64,000 bases of DNA, taken from assembly GCA_029964075.1 (NCBI GenBank), contig CM057144.1, positions 15,027,281-15,091,280 of the forward strand, given 5' to 3'. Numbering within the stretch: the first letter of the stretch is position 1; each line of letters begins with the position of its first letter. Shown here in pieces: positions 6,001 through 31,200 of the stretch. Under the pieces are notes generated by a model, which ran no database searches, was not told the origin of the DNA, and saw only the letters and a program-made list of their open reading frames with translations. This stretch comes from Patiria pectinifera. Lineage: Eukaryota; Echinodermata; Asteroidea; Valvatida; Asterinidae. The position numbers and the translations under genes are program-made.

Positions 6001-9000
6001 TGCAAAAAATTGTAAATTAAATCAATTTTTGTGAAAAAAAATTCTCCATAAATCCTTTATATTTTCCCAAATCTCTTCAAGAATCACTTTTTGTGTATGA
6101 AAGTATGTTTATTATGCCTCCTAGAGTGTTTCTGAGTTGTTTCCCGAAAAGTCGATTTTTGACCCAAATTTGCTAAAAATGTAAGGCTAACCCCTTGCAT
6201 TTTTTTCAATTTTGGCCAAAAAATAAAATTGCTTGAAACTTGCTAGAAAGATGCCTAAGGGCCCTTAGAACACGTTCCCAAAATTTCTGTTGCCAAATGT
6301 GCCGCTCAAAGGAAATATGGCGTGCAAAAAATTGTAAATTAAATTTTTTTTTTTGAAAAATATTTCTCCATAAATCCTTTATACTTGCCCAAATCTCTTC
6401 AAGAATCACTTTTTGAGTATGAAAGTATGTTTATTATGCCTCCTAGAGTGTTTCTGAGTTGTTTCCCGAAAAGTCGATTTTTGACCCAAATTTGCTAAAA
6501 ATGTAAGGCTAACCCCTTGCATTTTTTTCAATTTTGGCCAAAAAATGAAATTGCTTGAAACTTGCTAGAAAGATGCCTGAGGGCCCTTAGAACACGTTCC
6601 CAAAAATTCTGTTGCCAAATGTGCCACTCAAAGGAAATATGGCGTGCAAAAAATTGTAAATTAAATCAATTTTTTTGAAAAATATTTCTCCATAAATCCT
6701 TTATACTTGCCCAAATCTCTTCTAGAATCACTTTTTGTGTATGAAAGTATGTTTATTATGCCTCCTAGAGTGTTTCTGAGTTGTTTCCCGAAAAGTCGAT
6801 TTTTGACCCAAATTTGCTAAAAATGTAAGGCTAACCCCTTGCATTTTTTTCAATTTTGGCCAAAAATTAAAATTGCTTGAAACTTGCTAGAAAGATGCCT
6901 AAGGGCCCTTAGAACACGTTCCCAAAATTTCTGTTGCCAAATGTGCCGCTCAAAGGAAATATGGCGTGCAAAAAATTGAAAATTATATTAATTTTTTTTG
7001 AAAAATATTTCTCCATAAATCCTTTATACTTGCCCAAATCTCTTCAAGAATCACTTTTTGTGTATGAAAGTATGTTTATTATGCCTCCTAGAGTGTTTCT
7101 GAGTTGTTTCCCGAAAAGTCGATTCTTGACCCAAATTTGCTAAAAATGTAAGGCTAACCCCTTGCATTTTTTTCAATTTTTGCCAAAAAATATAATTGCT
7201 TGAAACTTGCTAGAAAGATGCCTAAGGGCCCTTAGAACACGTTCCCAAAATTTCTGTTGCCAAATGTGCCGCTCAAAGGAAATATGGCGTGCAAAAAATT
7301 GAAAATTATATTAATTTTTGTAAAAAATATTTCTCCATAAATCCTTTATACTTGCCCAAATCTCTTCAATAATCATTGTTGAGTATGAAAGTATGTTTAT
7401 TATGCCTCCTAGAGTGTTTCTGAGTTGTTTCCCGAAAAGTCGATTTTTGACCCAAATTTGCTAAAAATGCAAGGCTAACCCCTTGCATTTTTTTCAATTT
7501 TGGCCAAAAAATAAAATTGCTTGAAACTTGCTTGACAGATGCCTAAGGGCCCTTAGAACACGTTCCCAAAATTTCTGTTGCCAAATGTGCCGCTCAAAGG
7601 AAATATGGCGTGCAAAAAATTGAAAATTATATTAATTTTTTTTGAAAAATATTTCTCCATAAATCCTTTATACTTGCCCAAATCTCTTCAAGAATCACTT
7701 TTTGTGTATGAAAGTATGTTTATTATGCCTCCTAGAGTGTTTCTGAGTTGTTTCCCGAAAAGTCGATTCTTGACCCAAATTTGCTAAAAATGTAAGGCTA
7801 ACCCCTTGCATTTTTTCAATTTTGGCCAAAAATAAAATTGCTTGAAACTTGCTAGAAAGATCCCTGAGGGCCCTTAGAACACGTTCCCAAAATTTCTGTT
7901 GCCAAATGTGCCGCTCAAAGGAAATATGGCGTGCAAAAAATTGTAAATTAAATTATTTTTTTTGAAAAATATTTCTCCATAAATCCTTTATACTTGCCCA
8001 AATCTCTTCAAGAATCACTTTTTGAGTATGAAAGTATGTTTATTATGCCTCCTAGAGTGTTTCTGAGTTGTTTCCCGAAAAGTCGATTTTGGCCAAATGT
8101 AATAAAAAATGTAAGGCTAACCCCTTGCATTTTTTTCAATTTTGGCCAAAAAATGAAATTGCTTGAAACTTGCTAGAAAGATGCGTGAGGGCCCTTAGAA
8201 CACGTTCCCAAAAATTCTGTTGCCAAATGTGCCACTCAAGGGAAATATGGCGTGCAAAAAATTGTAAATTAAATCAATTTTTGTGAAAAAAAAATCTCCA
8301 TAAATCCTTTATATTTGCCCAAATCTCTTCAAGAATCACTTTTTGAGTATGAAAGTATGTTTATTATGCCTCCTAGAGTGTTTCTGAGTTGTTTCCCGAA
8401 AAGTCGATTTTTGACCCATATTTGCTAAAAATGCAAGGCTAACCCCTTGCATTTTTTCAAATTTTGGCCCCAAAATAAAATTGCTTGAAACTTGCTAGAA
8501 AGATGCCTGAGGGCCCTTAGAACACGTTCCCAAAATTTCTGTTGCCAAATGTGCCGCTCAAAGGAAATATGGCGTGCAAAAAATTGTAAATTAAATTATT
8601 TTTTTTGAAAAATATTTCTCCATAAATCCTTTATACTTGCCCAAATCTCTTCAAGAATCACTTTTTGAGTATGAAAGTATGTTTATTATGCCTCCTAGAG
8701 TGTTTCTGAGTTGTTTCCCGAAAAGTCGATTTTTAGCCAAATTTGATGAAAAATGTAAGGCTAACCCCTTGCAATTTTTTCAATTTTGGCCAAAAATGAA
8801 ATTGCTTGAAACTTGCTAGAAAGATGCCTGAGGGCCCTTAGAACACGTTCCCAAAAATTCTGTTGCCAAATGTGCCACTCAAAGGAAATATGGCGTGCAA
8901 AAAATTGTAAATTAAATCAATTTTTTTGAAAAATATTTCTCCATAAATCCTTTATACTTGCCCAAATCTCTTCAAGAATCACTTTTTGTGTATGAAAGTA

Positions 9001-12000
9001 TGTTGATTATGCCTCCTAGAGTGTTTCTGAGTTGTTTCCCGAAAAGTCGATTTTTGACCCAAATTTGCTAAAATGTAAGGCTAACCTTGCATTTTTTTCA
9101 ATTTTGGCCAAAAAATGAAATTGCTTGAAACTTGCCCGGAAGATGCCTGAGGGCCCTTAGAACACGTTCCCAAAATTTCTGTTGGCAAATGTGCCACTCA
9201 AGGGAAATATGGCGTGCACAAAATTATAAATTATATTAATTTTTTTGAAAAATATTTCGACATAAATCCTTTATACTTGCCCAAATCTCTTCAAAAATAA
9301 CTTTTTGAGTATGAAAGTATGTTTATTATGCCTCCTAGAGTGTTTCTGAGTTGTTTCCCGAAAAGTCGATTCTTGACCCAAATTTGCTAAAAATGTAAGG
9401 CTAACCCCTTGCAATTTTTGTCAATTTTGGTCCAAAAATGAAATTGCTTGAAACTTGCTAGAAAGATGCCTAAGGGCCCTTAGAACACGTTCCCAAAATT
9501 TCTGTTGCCAAATGTGCCGCTCAAAGGAAATATGGCGTGCAAAAAATTGAAAATTATATTAATTTTTTTTGAAAAATATTTCTCCATAAATCCTTTATAC
9601 TTGCCCAAATCTCTTCAAGAATCACTTTTTGTGTATGAAAGTATGTTTATTATGCCTCCTAGAGTGTTTCTGAGTTGTTTCCTGAAAAGTCGATTTTTGA
9701 CCCAAATTTGCTAAAAATGTAAGGCTAACCCCTTGCATTTTTTTCAATTTTGGCCAAAAAATGAAATTGCTTGAAACTTGCTAGAAAGATGCCTGAGGGC
9801 CCTTAGAACACGTTCCCAAAATTTCTGTTGCCAAATGTGCCGCTCAAAGGAAATATGGCGTGCAAAAAATTGTAAATTAAATTAATTTTTTGTGAAAAAT
9901 ATTTCTCTATAAATCCTTTATACTTGCCCAAATCTCTTCAATAATCACTTTTGAGTATGAAAGTGTGTTTATTATGCCTCCTAGAGCGTTTCTGAGTTGT
10001 TTCCCGAAAAGTCGATTTTTGACCCAAATTTGCTAAAAATGTAAGGCTAACCCCTTGCATTTTTTCAATTTTGGCCAAAAATGAAATTGCTTGAAACTTG
10101 CTAGAAAGATGCGTGAGGGCCCTTAGAACACGTTCCCAAAATTCTGTTGCCAAATGTGCCACTCAAGGGAAATATGGCGTGCAAAAATTGTAAATTAAAT
10201 CAATTTTTGTGAAAAAAATCTCCATAAATCCTTTATATTTGCCCAAAGCTCTTCAATAATCACTTTTGAGTATGAAAGTGTGTCTATTATGCCTCCTAGA
10301 GTGTTTCTGAGTTGTTTCCCGAAAAGTCGATTCTTGACCCAAATTTGCTAAAAATGCAAGGCTAACCCCTTGCACTTTTTTCAATTTTGGCCAAAAAATG
10401 AAATTGCTTGTAACTTGCTAGAAAGATGCCTGAGGGCCCTTAGAACACGTTCTTAAAATTTCTGTTGCCAAATGTGCCACTCAAGGGAAATATGGCGTGC
10501 AAAAAATTGAAAATTAAATTATTATTTTTTGAAAAATATTTCTCCATAAACCCTTTATATTTGCCCAAATCTCTTCAATAATCACTTTTTGAGTATGAAA
10601 GTATGTTTATTATGCCTCCTAAAGTGTTTCTGAGTTGTTTCCTGAAAAGTCGATTTTTGACCCAAATTTGCTAAAAATGTAAGGCTAACCCCTTGCATTT
10701 TTTTTCAATTTTGGCCAAAAAATGAAATTGCTTGAAACTTGCTAGAAAGATGCCTGAGGGCCCTTAGAACACGTTCCCAAAAATTCTGTTGCCAAATGTG
10801 CCACTCAAAGGAAATATGGCGTGCAAAAAATTGTAAATTAAATCAATTTTTTTGAAAAATATTTCTCCATAAATCCTTTATACTTGCCCAAATCTCTTCA
10901 AGAATCACTTTTTGTGTATGAAAGTATGTTGATTATGCCTCCTAGAGTGTTTCTGAGTTGTTTCCCGAAAAGTCGATTTTTGACCCAAATTTGCTAAAAA
11001 TGTAAGGCTAACCCCTTGCATTTTTTTCAATTTTGGCCAAAAATTAAAATTGCTTGAAACTTGCTAGAAAGATGCCTAAGGGCCCTTAGAACACGTTCCC
11101 AAAATTTCTGTTGCCAAATGTGCCGCTCAAAGGAAATATGGCGTGCAAAAAATTGAAAATTATATTAATTTTTTTTGAAAAATATTTCTCCATAAATCCT
11201 TTATACTTGCCCAAATCTCTTCAAGAATCACTTTTTGTGTATGAAAGTATGTTTATTATGCCTCCTAGAGTGTTTCTGAGTTGTTTCCCGAAAAGTCGAT
11301 TCTTGACCCAAATTTGCTAAAAATGTAAGGCTAACCCCTTGCATTTTTTTCAATTTTGGCCAAAAAATAAAATTGCTTGAAACTTGCTAGAAAGATGCCT
11401 AAGGGCCCTTAGAACACGTTCCCAAAATTTCTGTTGCCAAATGTGCCGCTCAAAGGAAATATGGCGTGCAAAAAATTGAAAATTATATTAATTTTTTTTG
11501 AAAAATATTTCTCCATAAGTCCTTTATACTTGCCCAAATCTCTTCAAGAATCACTTTTTGTGTATGAAAGTATGTTTATTATGCCTCCTAGAGTGTTTCT
11601 GAGTTGTTTCCCGAAAAGTCGATTTTTGACCCAAATTTGCTAAAAATGTAAGGCTAACCCCTTGCATTTTTTTCAATTTTGGCCAAAAAATAAAATTGCT
11701 TGAAACTTGCTAGAAAGATGCCTGAGGGCCCTTAGAACACGTTCCCAAAATTTCTGTTGCCAAATGTGCCGCTCAAAGGAAATATGGCGTGCAAAAAATT
11801 GTAAATTAAATTATTTTTTTTGAAAAATATTTCTCCATAAATCCTTTATACTTGCCCAAATCTCTTCAAGAATCACTTTTTGAGTATGAAAGTATGTTTA
11901 TTATGCCTCCTAGAGTGTTTCTGAGTTGTTTCCCGAAAAGTCGATTTTTGACCCAAATTTGCTAAAAATGTTGCATTTTTTTCAATTTTGGCCAAAAAAT

Positions 12001-15000
12001 GAAATTGCTTGAAACTTGCTAGAAAGATGCGTGAGGGCCCTTAGAACACGTTCCCAAAAATTCTGTTGCCAAATGTGCCACTCAAGGGAAATATGGCGTG
12101 CAAAAAATTGTAAATTAAATCAATTTTTGTGAAAAAAAAATCTCCATAAATCCTTTATATTTGCCCAAATCTCTTCAAGAATCACTTTTTGAGTATGAAA
12201 GTATGTTTATTATGCCTCCTAGAGTGTTTCTGAGTTGTTTCCCGAAAAGTCGATTTTTGACCCAAATTTGCTAAAATGTAAGGCTAACCCCTTGCATTTT
12301 TTTCAATTTTGGCCAAAAAATAAAATTGCTTGAAACTTGCTAGAAAAATGCCTCAAGGCCCTTAGAACACGTTCCCAAAATTTCTGTTGCCAAATGTGCC
12401 GCTCAAAGGAAATATGGCGTGCAAAAAATTGAAAATTATATTAATTTTTTTTGAAAAATATTTCTCCATAAATCCTTTATACTTGCCCAAATCTCTTCAA
12501 TAATCACTTTTTGAGTATGAAAGTATGTTTATTATGCCTCCTAGAGTGTTTCTGAGTTGTTTCCTGAAAAGTCGATTTTTGACCCAAATTTGCTAAAAAT
12601 GCAAGGCTAACCCCTTGCATTTTTTTCAATTTTGGCCAAAAAATGAAATTGCTTGAAACTTGCTAGAAAGATGCCTGAGGGCCCTTAGAACACGTTCCCA
12701 AAATTTCTGTTGCCAAATGTGCCACTCAAGGGAAATATGGCGTGCAAAAAATTGTAAATTAAATCAATTTTTTTGAAAAAAAAATCTCCATAAATCCTTT
12801 ATATTTGCCCAAATCTCTTCAAGAATCACTTTTTGAGTATGAAAGTATGTTTATTATGCCTCCTAGAGTGTTTCTGAGTTGTTTCCCGAAAAGTCGATTT
12901 TTGACCCAAATTTTCTAAAAATGCAAGGCTAACCCCTTGCATTTTTTTCAATTTTGGCCAAAAAATAAAATTGCTTGAAACTTGCTAGAAAGATGCCTAA
13001 GGGCCCTTAGAACACGTTCCCAAAATTTCTGTTGCCAAATGTGCCGCTCAAAGGAAATATGGCGTGCAAAAAATTGAAAATTATATTAATTTTTTTTTGA
13101 AAAATATTTCTCCATAAATCCTTTATACTTGCCCAAATCTCTTCAAGAATCACTTTTTGAGTATGAAAGTATGTTTATTATGCCTCCTAGAGTGTTTCTG
13201 AGTTGTTTCCCGAAAAGTCGATTTTTGACCCAAATTTTCTAAAAATGCAAGGCTAACCCCTTGCATTTTTTTCAATTTTGGCCAAAAAATAAAATTGCTT
13301 GAAACTTGCTAGAAAGATGCCTAAGGGCCCTTAGAACACGTTCCCAAAATTTCTGTTGCCAAATGTGCCGCTCAAAGGAAATATGGCGTGCAAAAAATTG
13401 TAAATTAAATTATTTTTTTTGAAAAATATTTCTCCATAAATCCTTTATACTTGCCCAAATCTCTTCAAGAATCACTTTTTGAGTATGAAAGTATGTTTAT
13501 TATGCCTCCTAGAGTTTTTCTGAGTTGTTTCCCGAAAAGTCGATTTTTGACCCAAATTTGCTAAAAATGTAAGGCTAACCCCTTGCATTTTTTTCAATTT
13601 TGGCCAAAAAATGAAATTGCTTGAAACTTGCTAGAAAGATGCGTGAGGGCCCTTAGAACACGGTCCCAAAAAAATCTGTTGCCAAATGTGCCACTCAAGG
13701 GAAATATGGCGTGCAAAAAATTGTAAATTAAATCAATTTTTTTGAAAAAAAAATCTCCATAAATCCTTTATATTTGCCCAAATCTCTTCAAGAATCACTT
13801 TTTGAGTATGAAAGTATGTTTATTATGCCTCCTAGAGTGTTTCTGAGTTGTTTCCCGAAAAGTCGATTTTTGACCCAAATTTTCTAAAAATGCAAGGCTA
13901 ACCCCTTGCATTTTTTTCAATTTTGGCCAAAAAATAAAATTGCTTGAAACTTGCTAGAAAGATGCCTAAGGGCCCTTAGAACACGTTCCCAAAATTTCTG
14001 TTGCCAAATGTGCCGCTCAAAGGAAATATGGCGTGCAAAAAATTGAAAATTATATTAATTTTTTTTGAAAAATATTTCTCCATAAATCCTTTATACTTGC
14101 CCAAATCTCTTCAAGAATCACTTTTTGAGTATGAAAGTATGTTTATTATGCCTCCTAGAGTGTTTCTGAGTTGTTTCCCGAAAAGTCGATTTTTGACCCA
14201 AATTTGCTAAAAATGCAAGGCTAACCCCTTGCATTTTTTTCAATTTTGGCCAAAAAATAAAATTGCTTGAAACTTGCTAGAAAGATGCCTAAGGGCCCTT
14301 AGAACACGTTCCCAAAATTTCTGTTGCCAAATGTGCCGCTCAAAGGAAATATGGCGTGCAAAAAATTGTAAATTAAATTATTTTTTTTGAAAAATATTTC
14401 TCCATAAATCCTTTATACTTGCCCAAATCTCTTCAAGAATCACTTTTTGAGTATGAAAGTATGTTTATTATGCCTCCTAGAGTGTTTCTGAGTTGTTTCC
14501 CGAAAAGTCGATTTTTGACCCAAATTTGCTAAAAATGTAAGGCTAACCCCTTGCATTTTTTTCAATTTTGGCCAAAAAATGAAATTGCTTGAAACTTGCT
14601 AGAAAGATGCGTGAGGGCCCTTAGAACACGGTCCCAAAAAAATCTGTTGCCAAATGTGCCACTCAAGGGAAATATGGCGTGCAAAAAATTGTAAATTAAA
14701 TCAATTTTTTTGAAAAAAAAATCTCCATAAATCCTTTATATTTGCCCAAATCTCTTCAAGAATCACTTTTTGAGTATGAAAGTATGTTTATTATGCCTCC
14801 TAGAGTGTTTCTGAGTTGTTCCTGAAAAGTCGATTTTTGACCCAAATTTGCTAAAAATGTAAGGCTTACCCCTTGCATTTTTTTCAATTTTGGCCAAAAA
14901 ATGAAGTTGCTTGAAAATTGCTAGAAAGATGCCTAAGGGCCCTTAGAACACGTTCCCAAAATTTCTGTTGCCAAATGTGCCGCTCAGAGGAAATATGGCG

Positions 15001-15505
15001 TGCAAAAAATTGTAAATTAAATTATTTTTTTGAAAAATATTTCTCCATAAATCTTTATATTTGCCCAAATCTCTTAAATAACCACTTTTTGAGTATGAAA
15101 GTATGTTTATTATGCCTCCTAGAGTGTTTCTGAGTTGTTTCCCAAAAAGTCGATTTTTGACCCAAATTTGCTAAAAATGTAAGGCTAACCCCTTGCATTT
15201 TTTTCAATTTTGGCCAAAAAAATGAAATTGCTTGAAACTTGCTAGAAAGATGCCTAAGGGCCCTTAGAACACGTTCCCAAAATTTCTGTTGCCAAATGTG
15301 CCACTCAAAGGAAATATGGCGTGCAAAAAATTGAAAATTATATTAATTTGTTTGAAAAATATTTCTCCATAAATCCTTTATACTTGCCAAATCTCTTCAA
15401 TAATCACTTTTTGAGTATGATAGTATGTTTATTATGCCTCCGAAAGCGTTTCTGAGTTGTTTCGGTCGATTTTTGATCCAAATTTGCAAAAAATGTAAGT
15501 CTTAC
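1..15505. repeat. Satellite array, ~320-bp monomer, about 48 copies, with higher-order structure
   Basis: Head-to-tail array of an AT-rich monomer. The word GTTGCCAAATGTGCC recurs at spacings of 318-323 bp (for example 1808 to 2131, 7578 less 6934 = 2 x 322, 11111 to 11434). Most monomers differ by a few substitutions or 1-3 bp indels. Variant monomers recur in the same order in several places, so multi-monomer blocks have been copied. Each monomer carries three symmetric elements: a hairpin of AAAAATGCAAGG and CCTTGCATTTTT around a 6-base loop, the 12-bp palindrome TTTTGGCCAAAA, and in many copies the palindrome CTAAGGGCCCTTAG. Copies from about 14820 rightward are more diverged and the last one decays near 15505; the left end lies outside the window. 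A centromeric or heterochromatic satellite is possible. No CENP-B-box-like 17-mer was noticed. Confidence 0.97.
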
Positions 15506-16972
15506 CCTTACAGGGGGTGTGTGCGACTGGACATCGGCGAAACACAATTACTTGGAAAGCCAAACTGCAAATACCAAATAAATTTTTGTTTTATAAGTAA
15601 TGCTTTATTGTGCTCATCGGATTTCCCAGGAGAGCGATTAACTGAGCTCCACGAATTTCTAAAAATGAAGGCCTGTAACCCTTAAAAAAAATTCAGCTCA
15701 TTCCAAAAGAAAGGTTTACATTACAAGTTAATATTGAGATCATAAAGCCCGGTTCATACTTTACCCGAAAGCAAGTGCAAAGCAAAATCCATGTCGTCAA
15801 CAATGGTGGACGAATTTCGCTTTCGCGTGAAGTATGAACCGGGCTTTAGTAGCATTTGTTAAGTTTTCATAAAAGGGACAGGTGTTTCACAACTGTGTCA
15901 ATGTATGTTTCATTGTCTCAAAATGTGAAGGTTGCTGTATGTAGTTATCAGCACAAAAAGCTGCTTTTAATACGAGTGCTTAGCAACTTATTAATTTGGA
16001 TTCTGTGTGCCTTTTCTCATAACTTATGTACTAAGAGAGATTTTCACTAAATGTTTCTTAGTATTATCTTTCATTTTAGATATTTTCACAATTTGAAGCA
16101 TCTCTCTATATAAGCCATTTTAAGGTCATGGAATATGCAAAATGAGAGCCACATTACAGAAAAAAAGTCTCAAAAAGTCTTTTGCATTCCGCTCAAAATA
16201 ATTGAGGAAATAGATGCATAGTGCTATTAGTTGCTGAAGAAAAAAACAAGCAAAAAGTTCCGAAAATAAAATGCAGATTATAAATGTCTTCAATAGTTTG
16301 TAGTTATTGATACTGAAATTAAGTATTATTTTGTAGTTATTTATATTACTAACTAATCATCTATCTATCATTAAATACTTGGCAAAAAATATAAAAAGAT
16401 GTCTTTTTGGTCTTATTCTGTTAAGCAAGCACCTTTGAAAACTGTGGAGGAACCTTTACTGCCTTCCAACTCTCTTGGCACATAGAGAAGTTCAAGGGAA
16501 TTCAAGACATCTTTTTCTCGCTTCTAAAACCAAAACGATCCAGGGGATAAACACCCAGAATTACAATTTCCGATCTTGGCAAGTTTTAGGATTTATCCAC
16601 AAAGATATTGCAATTTTACAACATGCAACTCGACTCAAAATGTTTTCCCCCCCCCCAAAAAAAAAAATTGTGAAAATTATGCAAATTTATCACGTAAAGT
16701 TACAGAAAGTATGCATAGCTGGGGGCCAAGTTCTCCTCAAATTTGAATCTTGTGTCACCAAATTACCTTTAACTTCCCCAATCTTTTCTCCATTAACTTT
16801 GTCTAAAAATCCACCAATTTGATTGTCCACCACTCTGAATGAAAGAAAATCCAGATGTTGGACTTAAAATAAATATGGTATAAAAGAAAGTGTCAGGTAC
16901 TTCATGAAGAGGAGAAACTGTGCAGAGTTTGGGACATTAAGTAACGGAACGACGACTACAAAAGCTTCCAAA
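15506..16972. other. Non-coding flank between satellite and helicase gene 3' end
   Basis: No supported coding region. It holds one small MITE (15743-15848) and a C-run followed by an A-run near 16648. Part of this stretch should be the 3' UTR of the minus-strand helicase. An AATAAA signal on the minus strand is visible at 15604-15609, which would imply a 3' UTR of about 1.4 kb. Nearer variants may be used instead; I cannot decide. Confidence 0.5.
15743..15848. mobile_element. Short MITE, AAAGCCCGGTTCATACT inverted repeats (copy 1)
   Basis: A 106-bp element bounded by TAAAGCCCGGTTCATACT and its reverse complement AGTATGAACCGGGCTTTA. The interior is short and GC-richer than the flanks, with a TTTCGCTTTCGCG-like segment also seen in copy 2 (25363-25536). 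There is no coding capacity. This copy looks like an internally deleted relative of copy 2. The TA at both ends may be part of the target duplication. Superfamily not assigned. Confidence 0.85.
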
Positions 16973-17833
16973 TCACGCCGTCAGACAAGCATCTATGTGC
17001 TTGTTCAACTGCGCTATCCACGTCCCTGTAGGGAATTCCTTGTTACAGACCGGGCATGTTAGTTTGCCCAGCAAGCCCTGCTTGGTGGTGGTTTCCAACA
17101 GCCTGTTTGCCGACTTCTGTTTCTTGGTGGCCGGTTGGCTCACTGCGTCGGCCGGGCGACCATTGGCGTCTTGCAAGGGGCGCTTGGTCCCGGGACAGTT
17201 TGATTGGACGGTTGACGAGTTGGAGACTTGCTGGACTGATCCACTGCCATCAACAGTGGGTAGTTCACCCACAGTGCTGTGTGGTGACGGAATAGCCAGA
17301 TCCTCAGGAACTTCCATTTTGACATCTTCAGGTTGCTCCCCCACGTTTCCAGTGGAATGGTCCATGATGCTTCCAGTACTTTCCTGCTTCAGTGTACAAT
17401 CTTTGAGTTGGTCCGTACCATTTGGAGTCCGAGGGGTTGCACTTGGATGATCTTCAACCACAACACAGCAGTCATCATTGCTGTCTTCATTTTTGGAACA
17501 TTCCAATGTTTGCTTATCCTGGCCCCTGAGGGAACACCTTGTACTTTTGGGCCTACCTCGTTTGGCTCCTCTCTGTTTCACCTTCCCTGCAGCACTAGTG
17601 GTATCGTCTTTTTTCTTGTCAGCTGAAGGTGAGGGAGATGAGCTCTTGGACTCTCCACTGTCAAATCGAGGGGTGGTTTTGAAGAAGGTGTTCAGGGTGA
17701 CTGGAGCAGTCATGGCTTTTTTGACAAGTTTTGGATTAACCGGTGATTCGGGTTCAACCACGGCAAGCTTGGGGGTATGGGAAAGGTCGACTGAGGTCAT
17801 TACAGCTCCATTTGCAGCATTCTGTCGTAGCTT
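16973..17833 (-). CDS. Helicase terminal exon: disordered tail with PIP-like, AT-hook, SIM-like, NLS and UBZ4 finger
   Basis: A single 861-nt exon encodes residues 1064-1349. Seen: [12 protein letters not shown] at about 1106-1117, resembling a PCNA-interacting box (hydrophobic-x-x-F-F followed by a basic residue) but with Pro where Gln is usual; KRGRPKST at about 1154-1161, an AT-hook core; [10 protein letters not shown] at about 1183-1192, a hydrophobic patch in acidic surroundings as in SUMO-interacting motifs; KRPLQ and KKQK at about 1280-1303, a bipartite NLS; and CPVC, 15 residues, HIDAC at 1323-1346, closely matching the Rad18-type UBZ4 pattern (C-x2-C, then N-x-H-x-D-x-C-L). UBZ4 usually has about 11 residues between the second Cys and the His, so the insertion is odd. 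Each motif is short and only the zinc finger is strong alone; their order is the argument. Confidence 0.85.
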   Translation of the reverse strand, partial: KLRQNAANGAVMTSVDLSHTPKLAVVEPESPVNPKLVKKAMTAPVTLNTFFKTTPRFDSGESKSSSPSPSADKKKDDTTSAAGKVKQRGAKRGRPKSTRCSLRGQDKQTLECSKNEDSNDDCCVVVEDHPSATPRTPNGTDQLKDCTLKQESTGSIMDHSTGNVGEQPEDVKMEVPEDLAIPSPHSTVGELPTVDGSGSVQQVSNSSTVQSNCPGTKRPLQDANGRPADAVSQPATKKQKSANRLLETTTKQGLLGKLTCPVCNKEFPTGTWIAQLNKHIDACLTA

Positions 17834-20800
17834 CTATAACAAAAAAAATATATAAATACTTGGGTGAGCAAATCAGTAATGACAGTAATTAAGATTTGAG
17901 GCTTTGTGTGGTGGAGATACTAAATAATGAAAGGTTTGCGGAAACACCATGTGCGAATAATTTCTCAACTAAGAGAATGGTTCTGAAAAGAACCAGAGGT
18001 ATAAACAATATGAATATGTTCCCTTGTCCTTACCGCCTGCAGTGCTTCAATGACTTTCTTTTCGCGTAACTCCTCCTCCGCAATCTCCACTAAGCATTCT
18101 GGGTAACGTATCCCGATGACTCGTTTCTCGTCGCTCAAAGCCACTCGCACCACTCGCATGCTATAGCTGGACTTGCTGCAACAAGACAAAACCAAGCCCT
18201 TAACATCAAAATAATATTATGTAACAGGAATCTTCGCCCACATGTGTTTTTTAGTTTCCACTTATGAATAATCCCGACAAAGAATTGCTGCAAACCCAAA
18301 ATGAGCTGTGGACAAAATCGTGTTTCGTGCTCAAAAGGTTGTGGATGGTTTTACACTGTTTACACAGAAAGTATAATATCAACTGAGTTGAAACTTCACT
18401 GGGTTAGGCTTTGAACGTTCTTCTTCAGGTTTTGAGTTGTGTTGGTTTTTATTCAAAACGAACAAAATGCATGAACAGCGAATGATCCTATATGCCTAAC
18501 CCTAACCCCTTAGTACTTCCTTAGGACTACCCTGCTAAATCCAACAGAGTCCAACCGGACTTTCCTGTTCAATCCACTAGGCCTCATTTTCAGTTGCATG
18601 CTGAATCCAACGGAGTCAAACAATGCGTTATAATGCGGTTCAGTTGCCTGCTGAATCCAACATTTTGCATGAGGAATGTACACAAGGGGTCAACTGCTCA
18701 ATCCAACAGGCTCCATCGGGTAGGTGACGTAGTTGGATCCTGTTGGATTCAGCAGCGTTGTGGAAACGGGTTGCACAATGTCATTTTATATTTTTTGCAA
18801 AGATGTTATATTATACATGTACGTTGCCACTAACCTCAGGTCTAGTTTCTGCGCATGTTTAGCAACAGTGGCTTCAAGTGTAGACAACAGAGTCACAATG
18901 CCTCCACACAACAGATCCATGCGATGCAGCCGCGAACCAACTACAAGAGATGAATAGTATACAAATATTGAGTGGCTCAGCGTGGAATAGGAGGAATATT
19001 ATCGCAAGGTAAAATCTGGACTTTTCCATTTCACGTGTCTCATTCAGAAGCGAATAAATTTTGCTACGCTAAAACTAGCAATTGAAAAAGATACATATTT
19101 TTAGATGAAGTAAAGGGGGAACGGAGTGCCCATCTCTCTTTCGTTAGCGATTGGGCCTGACTTGTATGCTGCTGTGGGGGGATCACCACACCTCCACAGC
19201 GAGTCTGTTACCTTCCCAGCATTGAATAATGCCGGTACCCATTTTAACACCTGGGTTGAGAGGATTAATTGTGGTAAAGCGCCTTACTCAAGGGCACAAC
19301 ACGCATGGCCACAGATAGTACATCTTCAACCCTGACAGTACCTGAATCTTTCAAGTTTGATTTCTTTGTTCACACACCCAAGGGGGATAGGATTACTAAT
19401 GCTGGACAGATTGTTGCATTTCTACTCACTCATGCAGGTGGCAGGGTTCTTGCAGTGAGATCCATGCATGCACTTATCTTTGGTGGCTTCATACTGCTCC
19501 TTCCAACCATCCTCTTCAATCAAAAAAAAAGTCACAGTGCTTTAGTAAAACTGGCCTCCCCAGGTGATCCATGAAGCATTCTATTTTCCTGAGGCGAAGC
19601 TGAAGAAAAATAGAATGCTCCATAGATCACCGAGGGAGGATAGTTTTACCACACCACGAGATAAAGCAGTCAATATTTGTTTTATAACACTTTTCTCACA
19701 GATTCTGCTTGTTTTAAGTGATAACTGATTAACTACCCCTTCCAGAAATGTTTGAACCCAGCTCTGTGGCGCCAGCGCACGCTTGGGACTAATACGCGCA
19801 ACGCGCACACCAATAATGCTTTTGCACACCATACCGAATCTCATCGTATAGTACTTTGGTTGCTACGGGTATAGTACTTTTCGCCGTGCACAGCAAGATA
19901 GCAACAATAGCGAATGCCATGTGACTTGCTCTCGGCCAATCAAGATACAGAATCTGTGGGTGAGGTGTTATAAAGAGAAATATACATCATACCTGCTTCC
20001 TCTTTGCTGATTGATTTGTATCTCATTGTGAGGTCAGCATAGTCCTCATCGTACGGGGAAACGCCAGTATTGGGCCTGTCAGACATCAGAAAAACAAGAG
20101 GCTAAAATTATAACACAAAAGATCATTACTCTGTTCTTCATGACAAAGTCTATGAAAATCGATGTCAATTTTTTTTTTTTTTTGGTATTTTGTTAGTGCT
20201 TGAAAGCATCTCGAAAGAAAAAACACAACTTAGGCCAAAAAAAGTCTTGGGTTTCTGGTACGGAGCTTGCCCCAAAAGTGGTGCGGCGACGCAGGTTTTT
20301 TTCGGTACTTTTTTTTCTTCAAATGTCGGCTGATACTGCAGATGATGCTTCGATCCCCTTAAAACTCTCAAAAATATCCTCCCAATCAAATGACAACGAT
20401 CTGTATGTCAGTTATATAATATGCTAAATGGAGACGTTTATGGTTAATGTAGCAATATTTAAACAGATTTTTGAATGACAAACAAAATATCCACCTTGCT
20501 ATTTTGAAGTGATGTGTGGAGTCTTCCTTCTGTGTTGCTAGGACGTACAGCTTCTTCCCAAACTGTTCTCGTTTGGAGCAGTAGAAGCCGTCACGCTTGC
20601 CGGTGAATCGCTCCGCTCTCTCCAAAGCTGCCTCCCAGCTCAGGCCACGGTCAACAGACAGGGACAGAAGTCTGGACGGAGAATTGCATCAAAACTTTCT
20701 TGATTCATTTTAACATCTCAATAGCACCGTGATATTACACTGTATATATCCCTCCATAAAACCACATTATTTGGGCAGTGCAGGGAATAACAGGCAGGGT

Positions 20801-22193
20801 GGTTGCAGGGTGGTGGGGGGGATACAGAGACTAAGGTCCACAGACTACAGTCCATTGTGACCTATCACCACGAAATGAGCTGAAAGTCGGAGATTGCCAT
20901 TGTGCAGTACAGTGGGGCAAAGCCAAAATTTGAAGGGGTGGTCGATTTTTTGTTTTCAGGTAAACCTCAATCTGTAAGTCCTGTGCTACCTTTCTCCAAT
21001 TTTTTTGTTCCGTCAAACATCTTTAAAACCTATTTCATCCTGTCTGTTATGAGTTGACTGTTCATTCACTGTAACACAACTGCAGGATTTTTAAATGATT
21101 CTCAAGAATCAGTTTTATAACTTCAAGTTAGTTGGTGGTCTGCATTTCCGTTATTAAACTCAGTACCCCTTAGTGTTGTATACCATTGGAAAGCCCCTTT
21201 TCGGCAGAATCCAGATATATGATTACCTCAATTCTTAAAAATTCCAACTTTAAGCTCAATTTGTGATGACAGGTCACAATTATGTCAAGTAAAACGCAAA
21301 TGAACTTTGACAAAAGCTATTCTTAAGATGGAACTTTTGCATTGAAATGTTGTAAATACATCTTGGGTTTTGCCCTTCAACAACATATTTTTTTATGAAC
21401 ACTGTTTACTCTGTTGTCCCGAGCAATTTTTGAGAAAAAAATTTTTTAGGATTTTTTTTTGCTGCTTAGCCTTCACACTTTTCTTTTCAAGGTGCCATCT
21501 GGGAGAGTCCAACCATTCCCACTTACTGTGTCGGTGTGCTTGTATTCGCTTCCTTGAAGACCGTCTTGGGTGGGCAAACCATCTCAACAGAGGATGCATT
21601 GATATCTACAAGACCTTCACTGTACCTACAATCACAGACATCATCAAAAATACGTAACTGCATCTCTTTGACAAGTGTTCAATGTAGTATTCACAAAAGA
21701 CAAACAAAGACGCTTTAATGAAAGTATAAGCTCTATAGGCTCTTAACTTCTGGCACAAACACCAAATATGTGCAGTATTCGTGTACAAACAATGTATTTA
21801 CCCAACTTCTTTAGTAAATGAAATCCTCTCCATTTTTAATTTACCTATTTTCAAGGAAAATGTCCCTTTACTCCCCATTTTAGAAAATGTTGGAAGTTTT
21901 CTGCACATGTATACAGGGTGGATGAAAAAAACCCGAAACCGAGATATTATTGCTAATTGGAACAGAAGTAGGGCACATGTGAATCAAAGGGAGATATCCT
22001 CTGTTAGGGTTGAATCTCCTCTTTAAAATGACACCCTGATCATGTCATTACATTCACGGTTGACTGAGCAGTGACCAATTTTATGAAAGGGTCTATTTAA
22101 CTAGTTTGACTGGAATTCTGTGGCCTCTCTGGACTCCCATATATTTGCACTAAGTTTAGTCGGGCACCATTGCAGTCATCAGCCGACATTTTG

Positions 22194-22226
<33 letters not shown>

Positions 22227-25200
22227 CCCACCCTTTTGGGGCAAGCTCCCACCAAACCTTTTTTTTTTTTTTTTTTGGCCTTAGAGGCTTGCGCCACTTT
22301 CAATTGTGGTTTTTGTGTCGTCATTTGTCACAGCGTGAAAGGCTATGGTTGCCAATCAAGGCAGGTGGGGGAAAAAAGAGATTTCACTATGAAAAGTGGC
22401 AAAGCCTCTAAATAAACCCTTTCATAAAACTGGTCGCTGCTCAGTCAACCGTGAATGTAAGGACATGATCAGGGTGTCATTTTAAAGAGGAGATTCAACC
22501 CTAACAGAGGATATCTCCCTTTGATTCACATGTGCCCTACTTCTGTTACAATTAGCAATAATATCTCGGTTTCGGTTTTTTTTAATCCACCCTGTATAAA
22601 TTTCAGTGTAGCAGCTTACCGGACAGACTATGTTAACTTATTTGGTAACACAACTATCTTTACACCTAGTACAAAGTGGTTTCCTCATTTTTCAGTCAAT
22701 TTAGTTATGATATCTCAAAGCGTTATGAGCTGTTTAATGACATTTTACTACTTGGAGCAAATTTCTCACTGCCACACACAAAAAATTAATTTAAAAAGAT
22801 TTTAAAAAGAAATTGACTTACTTTCCCTCCTTTTTCGCCATGGCGATAGCAGCTTGAAGGCACTCATAAAAATAGTTGAAAATCTGAAACCAAGCAGAAT
22901 GTCAAATGTCAAACATTTCAATGTCTCCCTCTGACTTGTGACTGTGATGGACCTGACAAACTCTAGACTTCCCTGCCACCTACCAAGTTCTGTCGTTCCA
23001 CACGGAGGCCCAGGATTCGATTCAGGAACCGGCTTACATCTGTGCTGTCTTTGTCGTTCACTCTGCGGCCGATGGAGGCGTAGGTCTCCATGACAGCCAT
23101 GATAGAGGTACACTCCTGTAGCTCAGCATTCAGCTCGCTGAAATCCATGTCTGGTTTGTCTGGTGAGATGGATGATAGTGCCACGCCTGCAGCCAACTCA
23201 TTCTGGAAAAAACAAGTAAAAATAGATGTAAGAAACCAAATACAAGATAAATGTAGGAGGTAATCTTAGTGTTGCACTCCTCATGACACTAAAGCGCAGT
23301 CATCAGAACAACTCTTCAGGAAGTTAATGAACCTACAAATTCTTAACAAAATAAGAATAACTGGTAGACTTTACTGCACCCGATTTCACGAAGCGCTATA
23401 ATGTGTGCGCTCTGACACAGACTAGTCTGGAAACAGCTTTTCTGGCCTTGCCTAGTCTTGTTTCTACCTCATCCCCTTTGGAAATATAAAGGGTGAGTCC
23501 AAAATACCGAGACCCAAATGTCTGGACCATTGTTTCAGTGAATTTCTGCATGTAGCACTTTTAAAATCTAGGATATGAAAGCCCAATTCATAAGCTTTCT
23601 TTTAGTACAAGAATCATTCAGATCACTCAAGTTACGGCATTTTAAACACAACCACCGTTTTAAAGTTCTGTCCACGGATAACACAAAAGGTGTGTGTTCT
23701 TTCAGCAAAACGAAAACAATTCACACACATCCTATGTGATTTGGTTTCATTTTACTTCTTGTGATCCGTAGACAGAACTTTAAAACAGTGGTTGTGTTTA
23801 ACATTCCGTAACTTGAAAAGTACATGAGTGATTGGAATGATTTTTATACTACAAGAAAGCTTATGAATTGGGCTTTCATATCCGATATATTGAAAGTGCT
23901 ACGTGCAAAACTTCTCTATGGGACTATAGTCCCGACATTTGGGTTTCGCTTTTTTTTGACTCGCCCTGTAGAGCTTGATGGTGCCATTTTGACATGCAGG
24001 TAGCCAATTCAAACACAGTAACCCACATCTGCCGTCATCGATACCAAAGTATCACTGAGCCCTCGAGTCTAGTGCACTGATCACGACGCCACAGTAAAGT
24101 ATGCTTCGTGCTAAACCGCTGGACAAATTTTGGAAAAGCATCCCATGTTTCCTCAAGGAAGTCTTGCTTGTTGTTTTGAGACACTTACATTACATATGGA
24201 CGTATACATGGTGCGCAGCGCGGAGCGTCCATAGGGCGTGTCAAAGTTGAACTGGGTCAGGTCAGCTCCTGTGGCTGCTCTTCTATCACCCTGGGTCAAT
24301 GCACCTTGAAGGGAAACCAGATGATTTGAATATTCATGAGCCAGTCACATTGAAGGGAAACCAGATGATTTGAATATTCATGAGCCAGTCACATTGAAGG
24401 GAAACCAGATGATTTGAATACTCATGAGCCAGTCACATTGAAGGGAAACCAGATGATTTGAATATTCACGAGCTAACTCCACTCCAGTCACATTGAAGGG
24501 AAACCAGATGATTTGAATATTCATGAGCAAACTCCACTCCAGTCACATTGAAGGGAAACCAGATGATTTGAATATTCATGAGCTAACTCCACTCCAGTCA
24601 CAACATTCATTGACTCATTACACACCGCAAGAGTGGGTTGAAAATTAGCTATTAAAGAATTTGTCATTTTATTATGCGTACCGGTAGTAGCCAAATTTGT
24701 TAATCTACAAAAGCTAAACTCACCTAATGTCTGGAGCCTGCGTGCTACGGACGCCGCAAATCGCCTCTCGCCGCCAAGGTTTGTCGTGAGAAGTTTGTAC
24801 AGTGGGCCACTGGCAACAAAAACAATAATACAATTGTTTTGGGAAACTGACCGCTAATTTGACTTGTGACTGACTTGTGATTTGACATGTGATTTGACAT
24901 GATTTTGTGATTTGACATGATTTTGTGATTTGACTTGTGACTGACTGGTAATTTGACTTGTCATATGACTTGTGACTGACTTGTGATTTGACTCGCGATT
25001 TGACATGATTTTGTGATTTGATTTTTGACTGACTGGTAATTTGACTTGTGACTGACTTGTGATTTGACTTGCCTTTTGACTTATGATTTTGTGATTTGAC
25101 TTGTGACTGACTGGTAATTTGACCTGTGATTTGATTTGTGATTGGCATGACTACAGCTCTGTTACCTGGTCTGGTTGGATCTGTGAGATCGTCCCATTTG

Positions 25201-28200
25201 TTGCACGGCTTTGTCAGCTGACCATGGGAGCTCAATAGTCAGATGTAATCGCCTACGTTGATTCTTCACTCTGGTGTCTGCATGCAGAGAAATGCCTGCA
25301 CAAAATAACAAATTCAGAAGTCTTATTTACCAAAGCGTCAGATAAGTTTGCTCATACCCAAGTAAGCCCGGTTCATACTCGGCGCGAAAGCGAACGCGAA
25401 TTTGTGACGTCTTGTCAAGTATTCGCGCTGCGAATTTGCAAAAGTTGAACACATTTCAACTCGGGCGAATTTCGCAGCAAATGTTTCATGACGTCAAATT
25501 CGCTTCGTATTTGCATGAAGTATGAACCGGGCTTTACAAATGAAAAACTGTGAGTACGTTTGCACGTACCTTTTGGTTTTTCAGACAGACAACTGGGAAG
25601 TCCAAAAAATTAAGAGGAAATAAGTTGATCGGAGGAAAATTTGCGTGGCTTTTTTTTTAAATATACCGGTAAAGGAAAGATTGAAATTAAACGTCTTCCC
25701 TATGTGAGTTTTTGGCATGTAATTAGTTAATTAAAAAGTTCAATTATACAGAATACTGTTTAAGATACCTTAAAGTAAACAAAGTAAGTATAAAAGAAGG
25801 ACAAACATTAAAAAGTTACAAATATAATAATACAATTATCTTCCTACATACCTATCTGGAATTTTTTTTAGGGCATTACCGTAAACATACAATTTTTGTT
25901 TGCCCAAATAACAATGGGCTGTGTACATGTAGCTTGGTTGAGTGTGAAAACTACACTCTGAACTCACAGGTTTAATTTCTTTGTTCAAACCAATGTTACT
26001 TAAAAATTAAAAAGTCTGTTTCGCTTTGTGGGATTATTCCAATTTCTTACCCGTACTGGCTGCATCTGAAATTATGGCAACTAACTTCTTGCCAGACATG
26101 AAGCTATTCCGCTGTAAAACAATTAAAACCAATAATCGTTTACAAAAAAACAAAACAAAAACATTCATCTTACATCAGATATACATTTCTGACTTCAGTC
26201 ACTGTCCAAGTTCCTTCGCAAAGTCCCAGAAATTTTCAGCATATCTCTTCGTTCAAAAGCCTGGATTCCTCCCCATGATGAAAAGTTCAAATATCACTTT
26301 CTCAGTCTGTTGAATTTGTTGTACGATCAGCTTATTCATTTTAGTATCCTAGTCTCAGAAAGTACTCAACTAACACTGCAGCGATAAATGCAGACATTAT
26401 GCAGGCAAAAGCATTGACAATTTCTGATTCCTATAGTGCCAGATTAGTATGACTGTGCTATTCATAAGATGGAGTTTGCGTCGGGGTGATATAAATCAAC
26501 AGTGGGTTTTGCCCTTCACCGACGTGTAAAAACTGTATACTCGGTATGTTACCTCCCGGGTGAAAGTTGGAAAAAATCACTCGGAGTCGGGTGGGACGTG
26601 AACCCACAACCTTTCTGCTTTCTAGTGCAGATGTCTTTGAATTTGCGTATACAGTGTTTATACGTCGGTGAAGGGCAGAACCCAATATTGATTTGTGAGG
26701 TATTTTAGGCAAAAGTAGCTCTGGGAACTTGAGCTTTATTTTGTGGATTGAATAACATTTTGAACACTTTTGAACTTTTCGAAGCGTTGGACCTTCACTC
26801 AAGACCCTGCAAACTGACCTCCTGCACGTTCAGACTGTTCACGTCAAAGGAGTCAGCCGGGGTACGTGGTTGATAGCGGGCATGGGCGTTGGGACCGTCC
26901 CGCACCATGCGACCTTTACGCCCCGTCATTTCAGCAACTGCCGAAGCCCCGCCCAGCTGATCTATGATGTCATCAAGGGGACTGTGAGTACAAGGGGAGG
27001 GGCAGAACACGAGGAGAATTTAATGAAATTTTAGACTGCCTTATTGAATAATCTAAGTCCCGCCCACTTCGCACTTTGGCAAAAACACATGCACTTCTCT
27101 AATGCAACACTGCATGATTCAGCAATGAATGTGTCATATTCATGTGCATGCATGTCAGATTTTCATAGACTTTTGTGCATGCATGTCGTACAGGAATCAT
27201 GGCTGTGATTGCTCAAAACATCCTGTGGCTGGGCTTAATGATTCGGTTCATTCTGATTAAGAATGGTTCTTGAACTCTGTGTACAGAAATCAATGAAAGA
27301 AGGCTTTTCCAACGGTGCGTCTTAAGAAGCACCATTGGAAATTTCTGTTTGTAGTTCTTTCTTTTTTATTCGGCGAAGCGCGCAAGCGTTGACATGACGC
27401 ACGCACCCGCGTGGTTGCTATTATTCGTTGGATCGGTGCGCGACATCGCAGAGCTGCAATGGGCTCAGTGAGAACGTGTCTCGAGCACTGAATTCAGGCC
27501 CAATTCAAAACATGATTCAGCAACCTTTGACTTGAAATCGAGATCCTAAAATGCTGTTTTTCTCAAAATATACAGCTGAAGCTGAGCTGAAACTTCATCA
27601 GGTTAGTTGTTCAGCACCCTTCTTTAGATTTGGAGCACTTTTGTTGCTTCAAACGAACAAAATGCACAAATTACAAATGATGGACTGTACCTTTAAGTAC
27701 TGACCTATTAGGAAGCGGCATTTTCTTGGCAAACTCCAGGAGCATCGTCTTGGCAGTCTTACTCCAGTCGTCATCACGAGCTGCCTCTGTGTCCTAGTAA
27801 GAAAAATAAGAACAATGTTTATACTTGATGCCAGTTTGTTATCTGTACTTTGGATAATCCACCCAAGGCACATTGTATCATGGTGTTTAAAGGCAGCATT
27901 CAACATCTGCAAACATCAAAAAACAAAACTACCTAATTATCATGAAATACCTTACATGAATATTAGTAAATAACAGTCTCAAGCACCCTGTAAAATCGTG
28001 GCACCTGGCGCGCTGTCATTTTCAAGAAAAGTGGGATTTTTGTAAAAATTTCCAAAGAAGGTGAGCTGAATATTGTTGGAAATAAACTGCCATTTTTCAA
28101 ATTAATGCCCCCAATTTACCAAATTTAGTGGGTCCACATTTTGTTTGCAATCGATTACACATCCGTGAACGAGTGAAAGTCAGCTAGACTCCTTCCCTGA

Positions 28201-31200
28201 CTTTACAACTTCCCCAATGACTATAACTCGCTCTGTTTCATCTGAAGTGGTGTCAGGAAACCAGACTTCAATGGCATTTTGTTTTTCTTGGTTTTTCCAG
28301 CAGCTATGAACATAAACTTAAACAGGTCAGGGCAACAATATTTGCTATAAAATGCTAATCCCAAAATCCATCAATTTCTGAAAATTACAGCAAAAGCAAA
28401 TGTTGTCCATGAAGTCATACATGTATAGTCGGTATGTTTCTGTCTAAAATAAACAGTGCAGTGTGTGATACAAAAATAGCAGACAGTAACAATTACTGCA
28501 GGTGACAAAACTTTAGGACAGCTTAATAATTTTCATCATAAAAATCATGGCAGAGAACACTGTCTTTGTGTTGAAAATCAGGTTGCCCTTCAGTGTCTCT
28601 CACCGAGATGACGAGGGTTGGGAAGTGTTGACTGATGAAGCGGACCAGAATTTCTCGCGCTACCGAGACGAAGCCCGACTGACCGCTACCTGTCTTGGTC
28701 ATCTCACTGTCCAGGCTGGCCTGAAATGAAATCAAAACAAACATCAAAAATGTAAACAAAAATCAAATCAGTAATGTGCTTTTGCGTGAACGGGGAGCCC
28801 AACTTGAGGAGGCCAACATAGCCTACAGGGGTTCTAAAAGACACTAGGTTACCCTTCTGTTAACTGAAATGTTGTCCCCTCCTATTTAACAAAAAGAGGC
28901 AGCGGTATTTTATCTTACCTCGCCAGTGCTCTGCAGGCCAATCACCACACAGTATCCCTCCTCCAGAGCCTTCTTGGCTTCTTCGACAATCCGCGGTACC
29001 TTCACTCCAAGACTGTTGACAGAAAAACTTTGAAGTTTTACTCACAGCCTAGGAAGTTAGGGTTAAAAACACTGGAGCTTTCAGAAAAACATTTTTAGGA
29101 CACAAACTGTTTGCTTTACCACAGCTGTTTGAAGAATCGTTGATGGCAGGACCAGAAGAAAGACCAGATGCGAGGGGAGCCCGTGTTGGTGCGTCCGAGG
29201 GCTGCTTCAAGGGAATTCTTCAACTCATTCCTGGATGGGAAGGAACAAAGCAGGAAAATGATAACAGAACTCGGGGAAACTTGGACTCAGCTTGAAGTCA
29301 ATGTAGCATTATAATTAGGTTTTTAACATTTTGGTGTAAGACATGTCCAAATGCTTTGAAGACTCACCAGACATGAGCTGCAGTGTCGTACATCTTTACC
29401 TGATCCCCTGTCAGATCCATCTCCACGGTAACAAACTCTGCCTGTTTGAAGCTTAGCCCTCTAGACAAGTACATCCCGGATGCTTTCATCTCCATGGCCA
29501 GCATCTCGGCAACACCTAGCAACACACAGAATCAATGTCAAGTGATTCAATTCTGTAACTTTAATTTTTTTTAATTTTTTTTTTACTGTTTAGACTGAAG
29601 TTCAGTTGCTAAATTGCTTTTCAAAAAAAAATTACATTTTTACTACTGATACCCAGAAAATGGCTAGTTAATGGATTAACCGCTTGCACACAAGCGTCTG
29701 TGATATTCACGCAGATTCGGTGATTAATTTTGCAAAACAAGACTGCGTCTTGACATCCAGATTCTGACCATTCATCGGGCGCCTTCTATCGGGTCTTCCG
29801 TAACCCGTTGTTGCATTACAAAAACATGGCATCCAAATTGACCAATCAACAGCTTAGTCCACATTTCTTATCCAAATGACGACAAAGTTTCTAATGTCGA
29901 CTCCGATTGGGGTGGCATAAATGTTCATGCTATGATATATCAGACGTTCGTACTGTGGCTCTGCACACGTGCATGTCTAATTGTCAGACTAGAAAACGGC
30001 CTCTCTTGCACAAAAATATTGACTCTTTATTTCTCACCTAATCCTCGTTTGGTGATGGCCTCCAGAAATTTCTCAAATGATTCAAAGGATGCGCCATCAC
30101 CCCACATTCCAAGACGCTCCATGAAAGCCTGCAACAAAAATGAAGAAATATTTAAAAGTACCAGTCCAACAATACATGGCACGAAAGCAAGGACGCCCTC
30201 ATCTGCAGTCTAAGAATTCGTCACCATTTTGACGAAGTGGCGCATCTGTGCACACAGATGCAAAACCGAGTTTTGAGAAAAATTGCGTTTGAAGTTGGTG
30301 GATTTTTCAGTTTGCAATTTTCTGTACATTTCTCCACCAGATTACTAATTACTAAAGATATCCGTCACTTCGTCAAAACGGAAAATCTACTTCTTCACAA
30401 AAACGAGGCATGTTTGTACACAGCGCATGCGCGCATATAAAATGTATACATTTTAGAACGCACATGCGTCACTTCGTCAAAACGCAAATCGCGGAGGCTT
30501 CATAGTTCTAAATATAGCACACGTGTAAACTCAATGAGACTAAGTGACACAGAGAGATTTGTCACTTTGTCAAGACTGAAAAAAACTTAAGTGTGTAGCA
30601 CTTTCAACACTTTGTGCAATTAGCGTAATTAACGAACGATGGAATGTTGTGTCTCAGAATTTGGTAATCATGTAGAAGACATCATAAAATGTTAGAATAG
30701 CCAAAAATCTCAGATTTCAGAAAATCTCGAATTTGGACGGATGCGTCACTTCGTCAAAACGGTGAGGAATTGTGCAACCTGCTTGTATCTATGATGTTAA
30801 ATAGTCTGTGACCAATAAATGTATGCAGTACAGGTATTTTCATTCTTAAAATGTGTCTTTCTATCTATGAGAATTAAAGCCACCTCAATAAAGAATAACT
30901 AGAAATGGATTTTCATAAAAAATACAATACAAATTTGACTGAGACGTTTACCATGTTTTTGACATCGGTTACTCCTGTTGCACTACAATACAGGACTCTA
31001 GCTTGTGGAAGCATTCTGCAAACAAGTACAAAAATGTTTTAATTTAAGTTTCAATTTTGATGAGTCTACTACAAACTATTCAAAAATTACGATACTTACA
31101 AGTAATATACAACATTTGCAAACATCAAAAAACAAAACTACCCAAAAAATAAAAAAAAAACATAGAAAATTATTATGAAATACCTTACTTTGCTGTAAGT

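Follow-up and report, generated by a model that had tools for sequence, protein, structure and literature searches.

Gene structure and helicase core

The window, that is, the whole stretch of 64,000 nucleotides analysed here, carries on its minus strand a gene of the strawberry-notch (SNO) family, the features of which are collected in Table 1. The exons were located with an approximate SBNO1-type guide sequence, and the junctions were picked by phase, splice signal and fit. In the assembled model, which runs from 36420 down to 16973, one unbroken frame extends over the 30 exons and contains a single stop, at its end. Since GT-AG ends and phase were conditions of the junction choice, the fact that all 29 of 29 introns are of the GT-AG type is not independent evidence; such evidence for the model comes from a frame without internal stops, from the Pfam domains and from the codon statistics. 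The least certain junctions are 7/8, 15/16 and 21/22, where there are close alternatives or the guidance is weak. A small exon may be missing at one of these junctions, which would leave the C-terminal tail unaffected, and a non-coding 5' exon may precede the first modelled one.

Three Pfam domains, AAA_34, Helicase_C_4 and SBNO alpha/beta, were found in this order in the 1,377-aa model, as in the strawberry notch proteins Drosophila Sno, human SBNO1/SBNO2 and Arabidopsis FORGETTER1. The AAA_34 domain contains Walker A and the DECH box, and the catalytic motifs of the core are kept. Judged by these domains, the protein is a complete SNO helicase, in agreement with the normal strawberry-notch core claimed by a first-pass annotation of this DNA. 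It differs from the family in a C-terminal tail of 286 residues with a PIP-like motif, an AT-hook core and a terminal UBZ-type finger. To our knowledge, human and plant SNO proteins have no such tail. Conversely, a PHD finger, which is described for FGT1 (PMC5040591), was not matched by Pfam in the 1,377-aa model.

Table 1. Features of the strawberry-notch gene and its predicted product
Feature	Coordinates	Strand	Residues	Remarks
Strawberry-notch family gene	16973..36420	-		Model; 30 coding exons, 1,377 aa, 4,134 nt
AAA_34 helicase half, exons 2-12	29368..35286	-	129-440	PF13872, E 4.3e-123
Helicase_C_4, exons 17-24	21527..26981	-	583-868	PF13871, E 3.7e-103
SBNO alpha/beta domain, exons 25-28	18835..20671	-	904-1012	PF25373, E 1.1e-25
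Penultimate exon, end of SNO core	18034..18175	-		Exon ends at residue 1091
Last exon, 286-aa tail and stop	16973..17833	-	1092-1377	Single open frame
PIP-like motif, PVTLNTFF followed by KTTPR	17681..17704	-	1135-1142	Sequence and shuffle test
AT-hook core KRGRPK	17546..17563	-	1182-1187	No Pfam match at this place
SIM-like stretch with VVVEDH	17447..17476	-	1211-1220	Weak
KKQK, monopartite NLS-like	17114..17125	-	1328-1331
UBZ-type zinc finger	16982..17062	-	1349-1375	Ligands C1351, C1354, H1370, C1374

Assignment of the last exon to the gene

The tail, numbered 1064-1349 in the first-pass annotation and 1092-1377 here at equal length, is encoded by the last exon, and all the tail strings quoted earlier are present in the minus-strand frame of 16973..17833. 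A reading of this interval in plus-strand frame 1 was rejected for its many stops; in the remaining plus frames the longest ORF has 169 aa.

The alignments with approximate sequences of two family members end inside the penultimate exon, at residue 1080 for FGT1 and at residue 1069 for SBNO1 (taken without its last ~40 residues). The last exon is joined to the SNO core in phase 0, through a good donor of the penultimate exon (GCG/gtaagg, after 18034) and a T-rich acceptor (tttttgttatag/AAG, at 17833). The GC content of the last exon is 51.4%, compared with 51.5% in the other 29 exons and 40.5% in the surroundings at 16-37 kb. Read in its own frame, the exon has a codon score of 0.148 per codon, above the scores of the five alternative frames (-0.032 to 0.105) and above those of all 150 overlapping windows of the joined introns (maximum -0.021); positive scores are also obtained in four of the five wrong frames, and therefore part of the gap to the introns is due to GC. 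Among 4,000 first-order Markov sequences of the same composition, none remained open. No AATAAA or ATTAAA poly-A signal is present within 1 kb past the stop (the nearest ATTAAA is at 15971 and the nearest AATAAA at 15609), an observation that is neutral to slightly unfavourable for the exon. AlphaFold2 confidence is low nearly everywhere in the tail except at its C-terminus, which fits, and does not by itself prove, a predicted disordered tail or linker.

The last exon could lie outside the mRNA if it were an alternative last exon, if it belonged to a neighbouring gene, or if retention of the last intron ended the protein soon after 18034. This intron was picked by GT-AG and phase, so that the junction is a prediction from genomic sequence, and translation past 18034 without splicing would add 22 residues before a stop (ORF 17965..18216). 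Against such readings stand splice sites of good quality that keep phase 0, the GC content like that of the rest of the gene and the coding-like codon use, and we regard them together as very improbable. The last exon is very probably a part of the strawberry-notch mRNA, and the earlier description of an SNO core followed by one terminal exon is upheld by the same three lines of evidence.

A UBZ-type zinc finger at the C-terminus

A search of 177,635 PDB sequences with the last 42 residues of the protein (phmmer) produced 37 matches at E<=10. The best of them is DNA polymerase kappa, with an E-value of 9.5e-5 for the whole chain that sums two UBZ stretches scoring singly just 1.5 and 5.1. It is followed by an uncharacterized protein (0.0018) and by the UBZ of RAD18 (0.0061, or 0.0082 for the stretch, the best single UBZ stretch among those shown). 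UBZ proteins or their fusions make up 12 of the 37 matches (Pol kappa, two of RAD18, four of TAX1BP1, two of FAAP20, two of WRNIP1, and CALCOCO2/NDP52), and the others are mostly zinc proteins by name (RINGs, C2H2 fingers, Elf1). With the whole 286-aa tail as the query, four PDB matches were obtained at E<=1, namely Pol kappa (0.0026), RAD18 twice and a GFP-TAX1BP1 fusion. Two scrambles of the finger that kept its four ligands found no UBZ, one giving a single match (RNF4, 0.43) and the other none.

No curated Pfam cut-off is reached by the tail, the best scores being 19.1 of the required 23.2 for PF18112 and 16.9 of 25 for PF15750. The sub-threshold matches on the tail include UBZ_FAAP20 and PF18112 among other zinc fingers, and nothing appears there at E 0.1 in the search with the full model. 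As controls, a fragment with the RAD18 UBZ reaches zf-WRNIP1_ubi (PF18279, 26.5 of 26.4), and two fragments with the Pol kappa UBZs match no UBZ family, which demonstrates that the Pfam cut-off test overlooks genuine UBZs.

The AlphaFold2 single-sequence model of a 51-residue segment is a beta-beta-alpha finger with block-mean pLDDT of 75-86 and no residue at or above 90. Its comparison with PDB by Foldseek gave 33 matches, all with E-values of at least 1.1, and 19 of them, including the first five, are UBZs. The gap between C1354 and the ligand His is 15 residues; in RAD18 it is 11, and each of the two Pol kappa UBZs has 14. Asp-1372 aligns with D644 and D799 of Pol kappa and with the Asp conserved in RAD18; in a Pol kappa that has also lost its PIP, substitution of the UBZ Asp by Ala is reported to lower the activity that depends on ubiquitinated PCNA (PMC8526622). 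When the tail was shuffled 100,000 times, the pattern C..C{11-17}H[ILV]D.CL never occurred and C..C{11-17}H...C occurred at a frequency of 7e-4, these narrow patterns having been picked post hoc with the sequence already known. The four ligands and the conserved Asp, the UBZ relatives and the predicted beta-beta-alpha fold all argue for the UBZ4 finger proposed earlier at the extreme C-terminus, and the C-terminal finger is very probably a UBZ.

The PIP-like motif

The second element of the tail is situated 208 residues upstream of the zinc finger. The canonical pattern Qxx[ILM]xx[FY][FY] has no match in the tail, and the PIP-like motif is non-canonical because of a Pro at the position of the canonical Gln. 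On the other hand, PVTLNTFFK has TLxxFFK in common with MQTLESFFK and KHTLDIFFK. This is the form seen in Y-family polymerases, being shared by the PIPs of Pol eta (GMQTLESFFKPLTH) and Pol kappa (PNNPKHTLDIFFK) (PMC5295019, Table 1), and the motif is flanked by basic residues. The PIP-like motif of the first-pass annotation is retained in its Y-family form and lacks the canonical Gln.

The pattern T[LI]..FFK, picked after the fact, was found in 7 of 100,000 tail shuffles (7e-5), and the broad pattern [LIMV]..[FY][FY] in 0.7% of them. PIP-like matches also exist inside the helicase core, one canonical and two relaxed. The PIP peptide alone had no match in PDB, the query being too short to inform. 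The terminal PIP of Pol kappa is reported to stay out of the PCNA complex of this polymerase and to bind PCNA extremely weakly, binding not being observed by SPR (PMC8526622); a value of 4.9 uM is listed for the Pol kappa PIP peptide lengthened by PLTH (PMC5295019). Since a PIP of the same pattern is nearly inert in Pol kappa, the PIP-like motif of the tail proves little on its own, and we give it an even chance of being a working PIP.

AT-hook, SIM-like and NLS-like stretches

The AT-hook named earlier withstood the shuffle test: the pattern [KR]GRP[KR], represented in the tail by the KRGRPK core, is rare in shuffled tails (8.5e-4 of 100,000), and by its sequence the AT-hook core is considered real. 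The SIM-like stretch and the nuclear localization signal fared differently. Three valines next to an acidic residue occur in 0.07 of the tail shuffles, that is, in 7% of them and within chance, and the stricter SIM patterns [VI][VI]x[VI] and [VI]x[VI][VI] find no match. For this reason SUMO reading through VVVEDH was dropped, and with it the proposed recognition of SUMOylated PCNA. In a classical bipartite NLS the spacer is 10-12 residues long. Here about 19 residues separate KR from KKQK, and the bipartite NLS proposed earlier was abandoned because of this excessive spacing; the simpler pattern K[KR].[KR] is found in 0.36 of the tail shuffles and is also within chance.

Relatives of the helicase core

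The core was compared with approximate sequences of FGT1 and SBNO1 and lies at about equal distance from the two: over 786 alignment columns, identity is 45.8% with FGT1, 43.6% with SBNO1 and 49.2% between these two references. The branching order of the three proteins has an SH-aLRT of 5.1 and a UFBoot of 48. If the sequence is an animal one, so low an identity to SBNO1 would point to an old paralogue or to rapid evolution; with approximate reference sequences, this is a lead. The window protein groups with the approximate FGT1 and SBNO1 sequences at 100/100 against nine Acidobacteriota rows and one viral row, in a tree where its branch is long and where long branches and unlike composition were flagged. 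Neither the tree with the viral sequence L001 nor the one without it, L001 being left out because of its long branch, gave a supported order of the three eukaryotic proteins.

As a single-protein query against viral_contigs the helicase core had no match, and tblastn with the core against phages found 3 of 50,697 records, at ~28% identity and over less than half of the query. An alignment query of the core retrieved one viral contig at 32% identity and ten prokaryotic loci at 39-41%. The viral contig (L001:1098-11117) has an open frame of 3,340 residues that includes the SNO-like helicase. The prokaryotic loci (L002-L011), nine of them labelled Acidobacteriota, carry SNO-like helicases, with the MAG RYN_26 represented at three of them, and could be informative about how the family arose. 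Sno is reported from Holozoa, plants, two heterokonts and the haptophyte Emiliania with its virus in a 2009 survey (PMC2770060). Ten ORFs from the 11 prokaryotic and viral loci were compared, the Pyrinomonadaceae fragment L011 being left out, and the pattern C..C{8-20}H{3-5}[CH] is found nowhere in these ten SNO-like ORFs. The tail itself had no relative in viral_contigs.

Possible function of the tail

The presence of a UBZ-type finger and a Y-family-type PIP-like motif in one terminal exon supports, at the level of motifs, the arrangement of ubiquitinated-PCNA readers. The first-pass proposal of a reader of modified PCNA thus survives in its ubiquitin part and is given up in its SUMO part. 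In SPRTN, a protease and not a helicase, a PIP is followed by a UBZ4 at the extreme C-terminus, in the same order as in the tail described here. FAN1 likewise combines a non-canonical PIP and a UBZ in one protein, with the PIP located immediately upstream of the UBZ, whereas here the two elements are 208 residues apart and C-terminal. Both elements of FAN1 are described as necessary, either mutant losing ubiquitinated PCNA, and at the concentrations used no binding to unmodified PCNA was seen (PMC5648898). Recruitment of SNM1A is also reported to need both its PIP and its UBZ (PMC6213728). FAN1 and SNM1A are nucleases, in contrast to the SNO helicase of the window. Pol kappa, the best-scoring UBZ chain, likewise carries the xTLxxFFK PIP, as does Pol eta, and its long C-terminus is for the most part unstructured (PMC8526622), but it is a polymerase with two UBZs, whereas the present protein has one UBZ and no polymerase. 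ZRANB3 and WRNIP1 are also described as ATPases that act at forks and are equipped with parts reading PCNA, ubiquitin or both; the former differs in combining PIP, APIM and NZF with a SWI/SNF2-family ATPase, and the latter is an AAA+ ATPase with a UBZ (PMC6213728).

FAN1 is the best model, as an AND-gate suits a protein whose predicted flexible tail combines a Gln-less PIP with a single UBZ. The Gln-less PIP would be too weak alone to hold PCNA, the UBZ would bind ubiquitin, and, as in FAN1, only ubiquitinated PCNA, offering both sites, would retain the protein. The AT-hook would contribute affinity for DNA, and the SNO motor could then remodel chromatin or fork DNA at the stall. We tentatively favour, with a confidence a little below even, a strawberry-notch SF2 ATPase whose tail brings it to DNA-bound partners carrying ubiquitin; the likeliest of these would be mono-ubiquitinated PCNA where forks stall.

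The UBZ could be genuine and its ligand another ubiquitinated chromatin protein, for instance H2A, FANCD2/FANCI or the K63 chains of RNF8-UBC13, the PIP-like match having arisen by chance in disordered sequence and the protein being a chromatin remodeller that ubiquitin brings in for repair or transcription. The evidence for the UBZ is stronger than that for the PIP, and the terminal PIP of Pol kappa is described as nearly inert (PMC8526622). The UBZs of FAAP20 and SLX4 read other ubiquitinated targets (PMC6213728). The SNO proteins of the literature consulted act in transcription, FGT1 being placed at promoters of expressed genes, with H3 binding and interaction with SWI/SNF and ISWI remodellers (PMC5040591), and Sbno1 acting at least partly via Yeats4 (PMC12289961). 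These UBZ targets and transcriptional roles make a different ligand nearly as likely as PCNA. However, TLxxFFK with its flanking basic residues is rare in tail shuffles (7e-5, post hoc), and the tail has no feature pointing to histones or FANCD2; we consider a different ligand a substantial possibility, at about one third.

In an unlikely reading, the protein is an SBNO1/2 orthologue that has evolved fast and keeps an ordinary role in transcription, and its lineage-specific tail is of little consequence. Such an orthologue would suit the long branch of the window protein, the UFBoot of 48 for the order of the three eukaryotic sequences and the report that mouse Sbno1 protects neuronal DNA at least partly through Yeats4 transcription (PMC12289961). 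On the other side, the catalytic motifs of the core are kept, and a drifting tail would not be expected to have a C-terminal finger with every ligand and the Asp.

The favoured recruitment to ubiquitinated PCNA can be extended to a third, anciently separate strawberry-notch branch outside the human SBNO1/SBNO2 picture, with a dedicated reader of ubiquitinated PCNA and remodeller at stalled forks that would form a new class beside SMARCAL1, ZRANB3 and HLTF; we find this extension doubtful. The search of the open-access literature gave no description of such a tail on an SNO protein; the tail may be described or annotated elsewhere.

The biochemical role of strawberry notch is poorly defined and has so far been framed as transcriptional co-activation. 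A tail of the damage-tolerance type predicts for the SNO motor a ligand, either PCNA or some other chromatin component in its ubiquitinated form, together with residues to mutate and, in fork stalling, a setting for assays. It would also raise the question of whether the genome-stability phenotypes of SNO in some lineages have a direct component.

Neighbouring sequence in the window

Rfam found nothing at the gathering score in the 64,000-nt window. A single ORF of 442 aa on the minus strand (53132..54457) encodes a sulfotransferase domain (PF00685, 6.3e-17); at 0.001 it had no sequence relative in PDB. A minus-strand ORF (37744..38499) that lies about 1.3 kb upstream of the first modelled SNO exon contains a CxC5 cysteine cluster (PF18718, 4.1e-8) of the type linked to KDZ transposases. 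Within the SNO gene, introns 20 and 19 contain minisatellites (24302..24602 and 24857..25143, respectively), and a 44-bp array within the former (24302..24583) reaches the acceptor of exon 21 at 24304. A satellite array of ~48 copies of a 322-bp unit with 94% matches (1..15507) ends ~1.5 kb downstream of the SNO stop.
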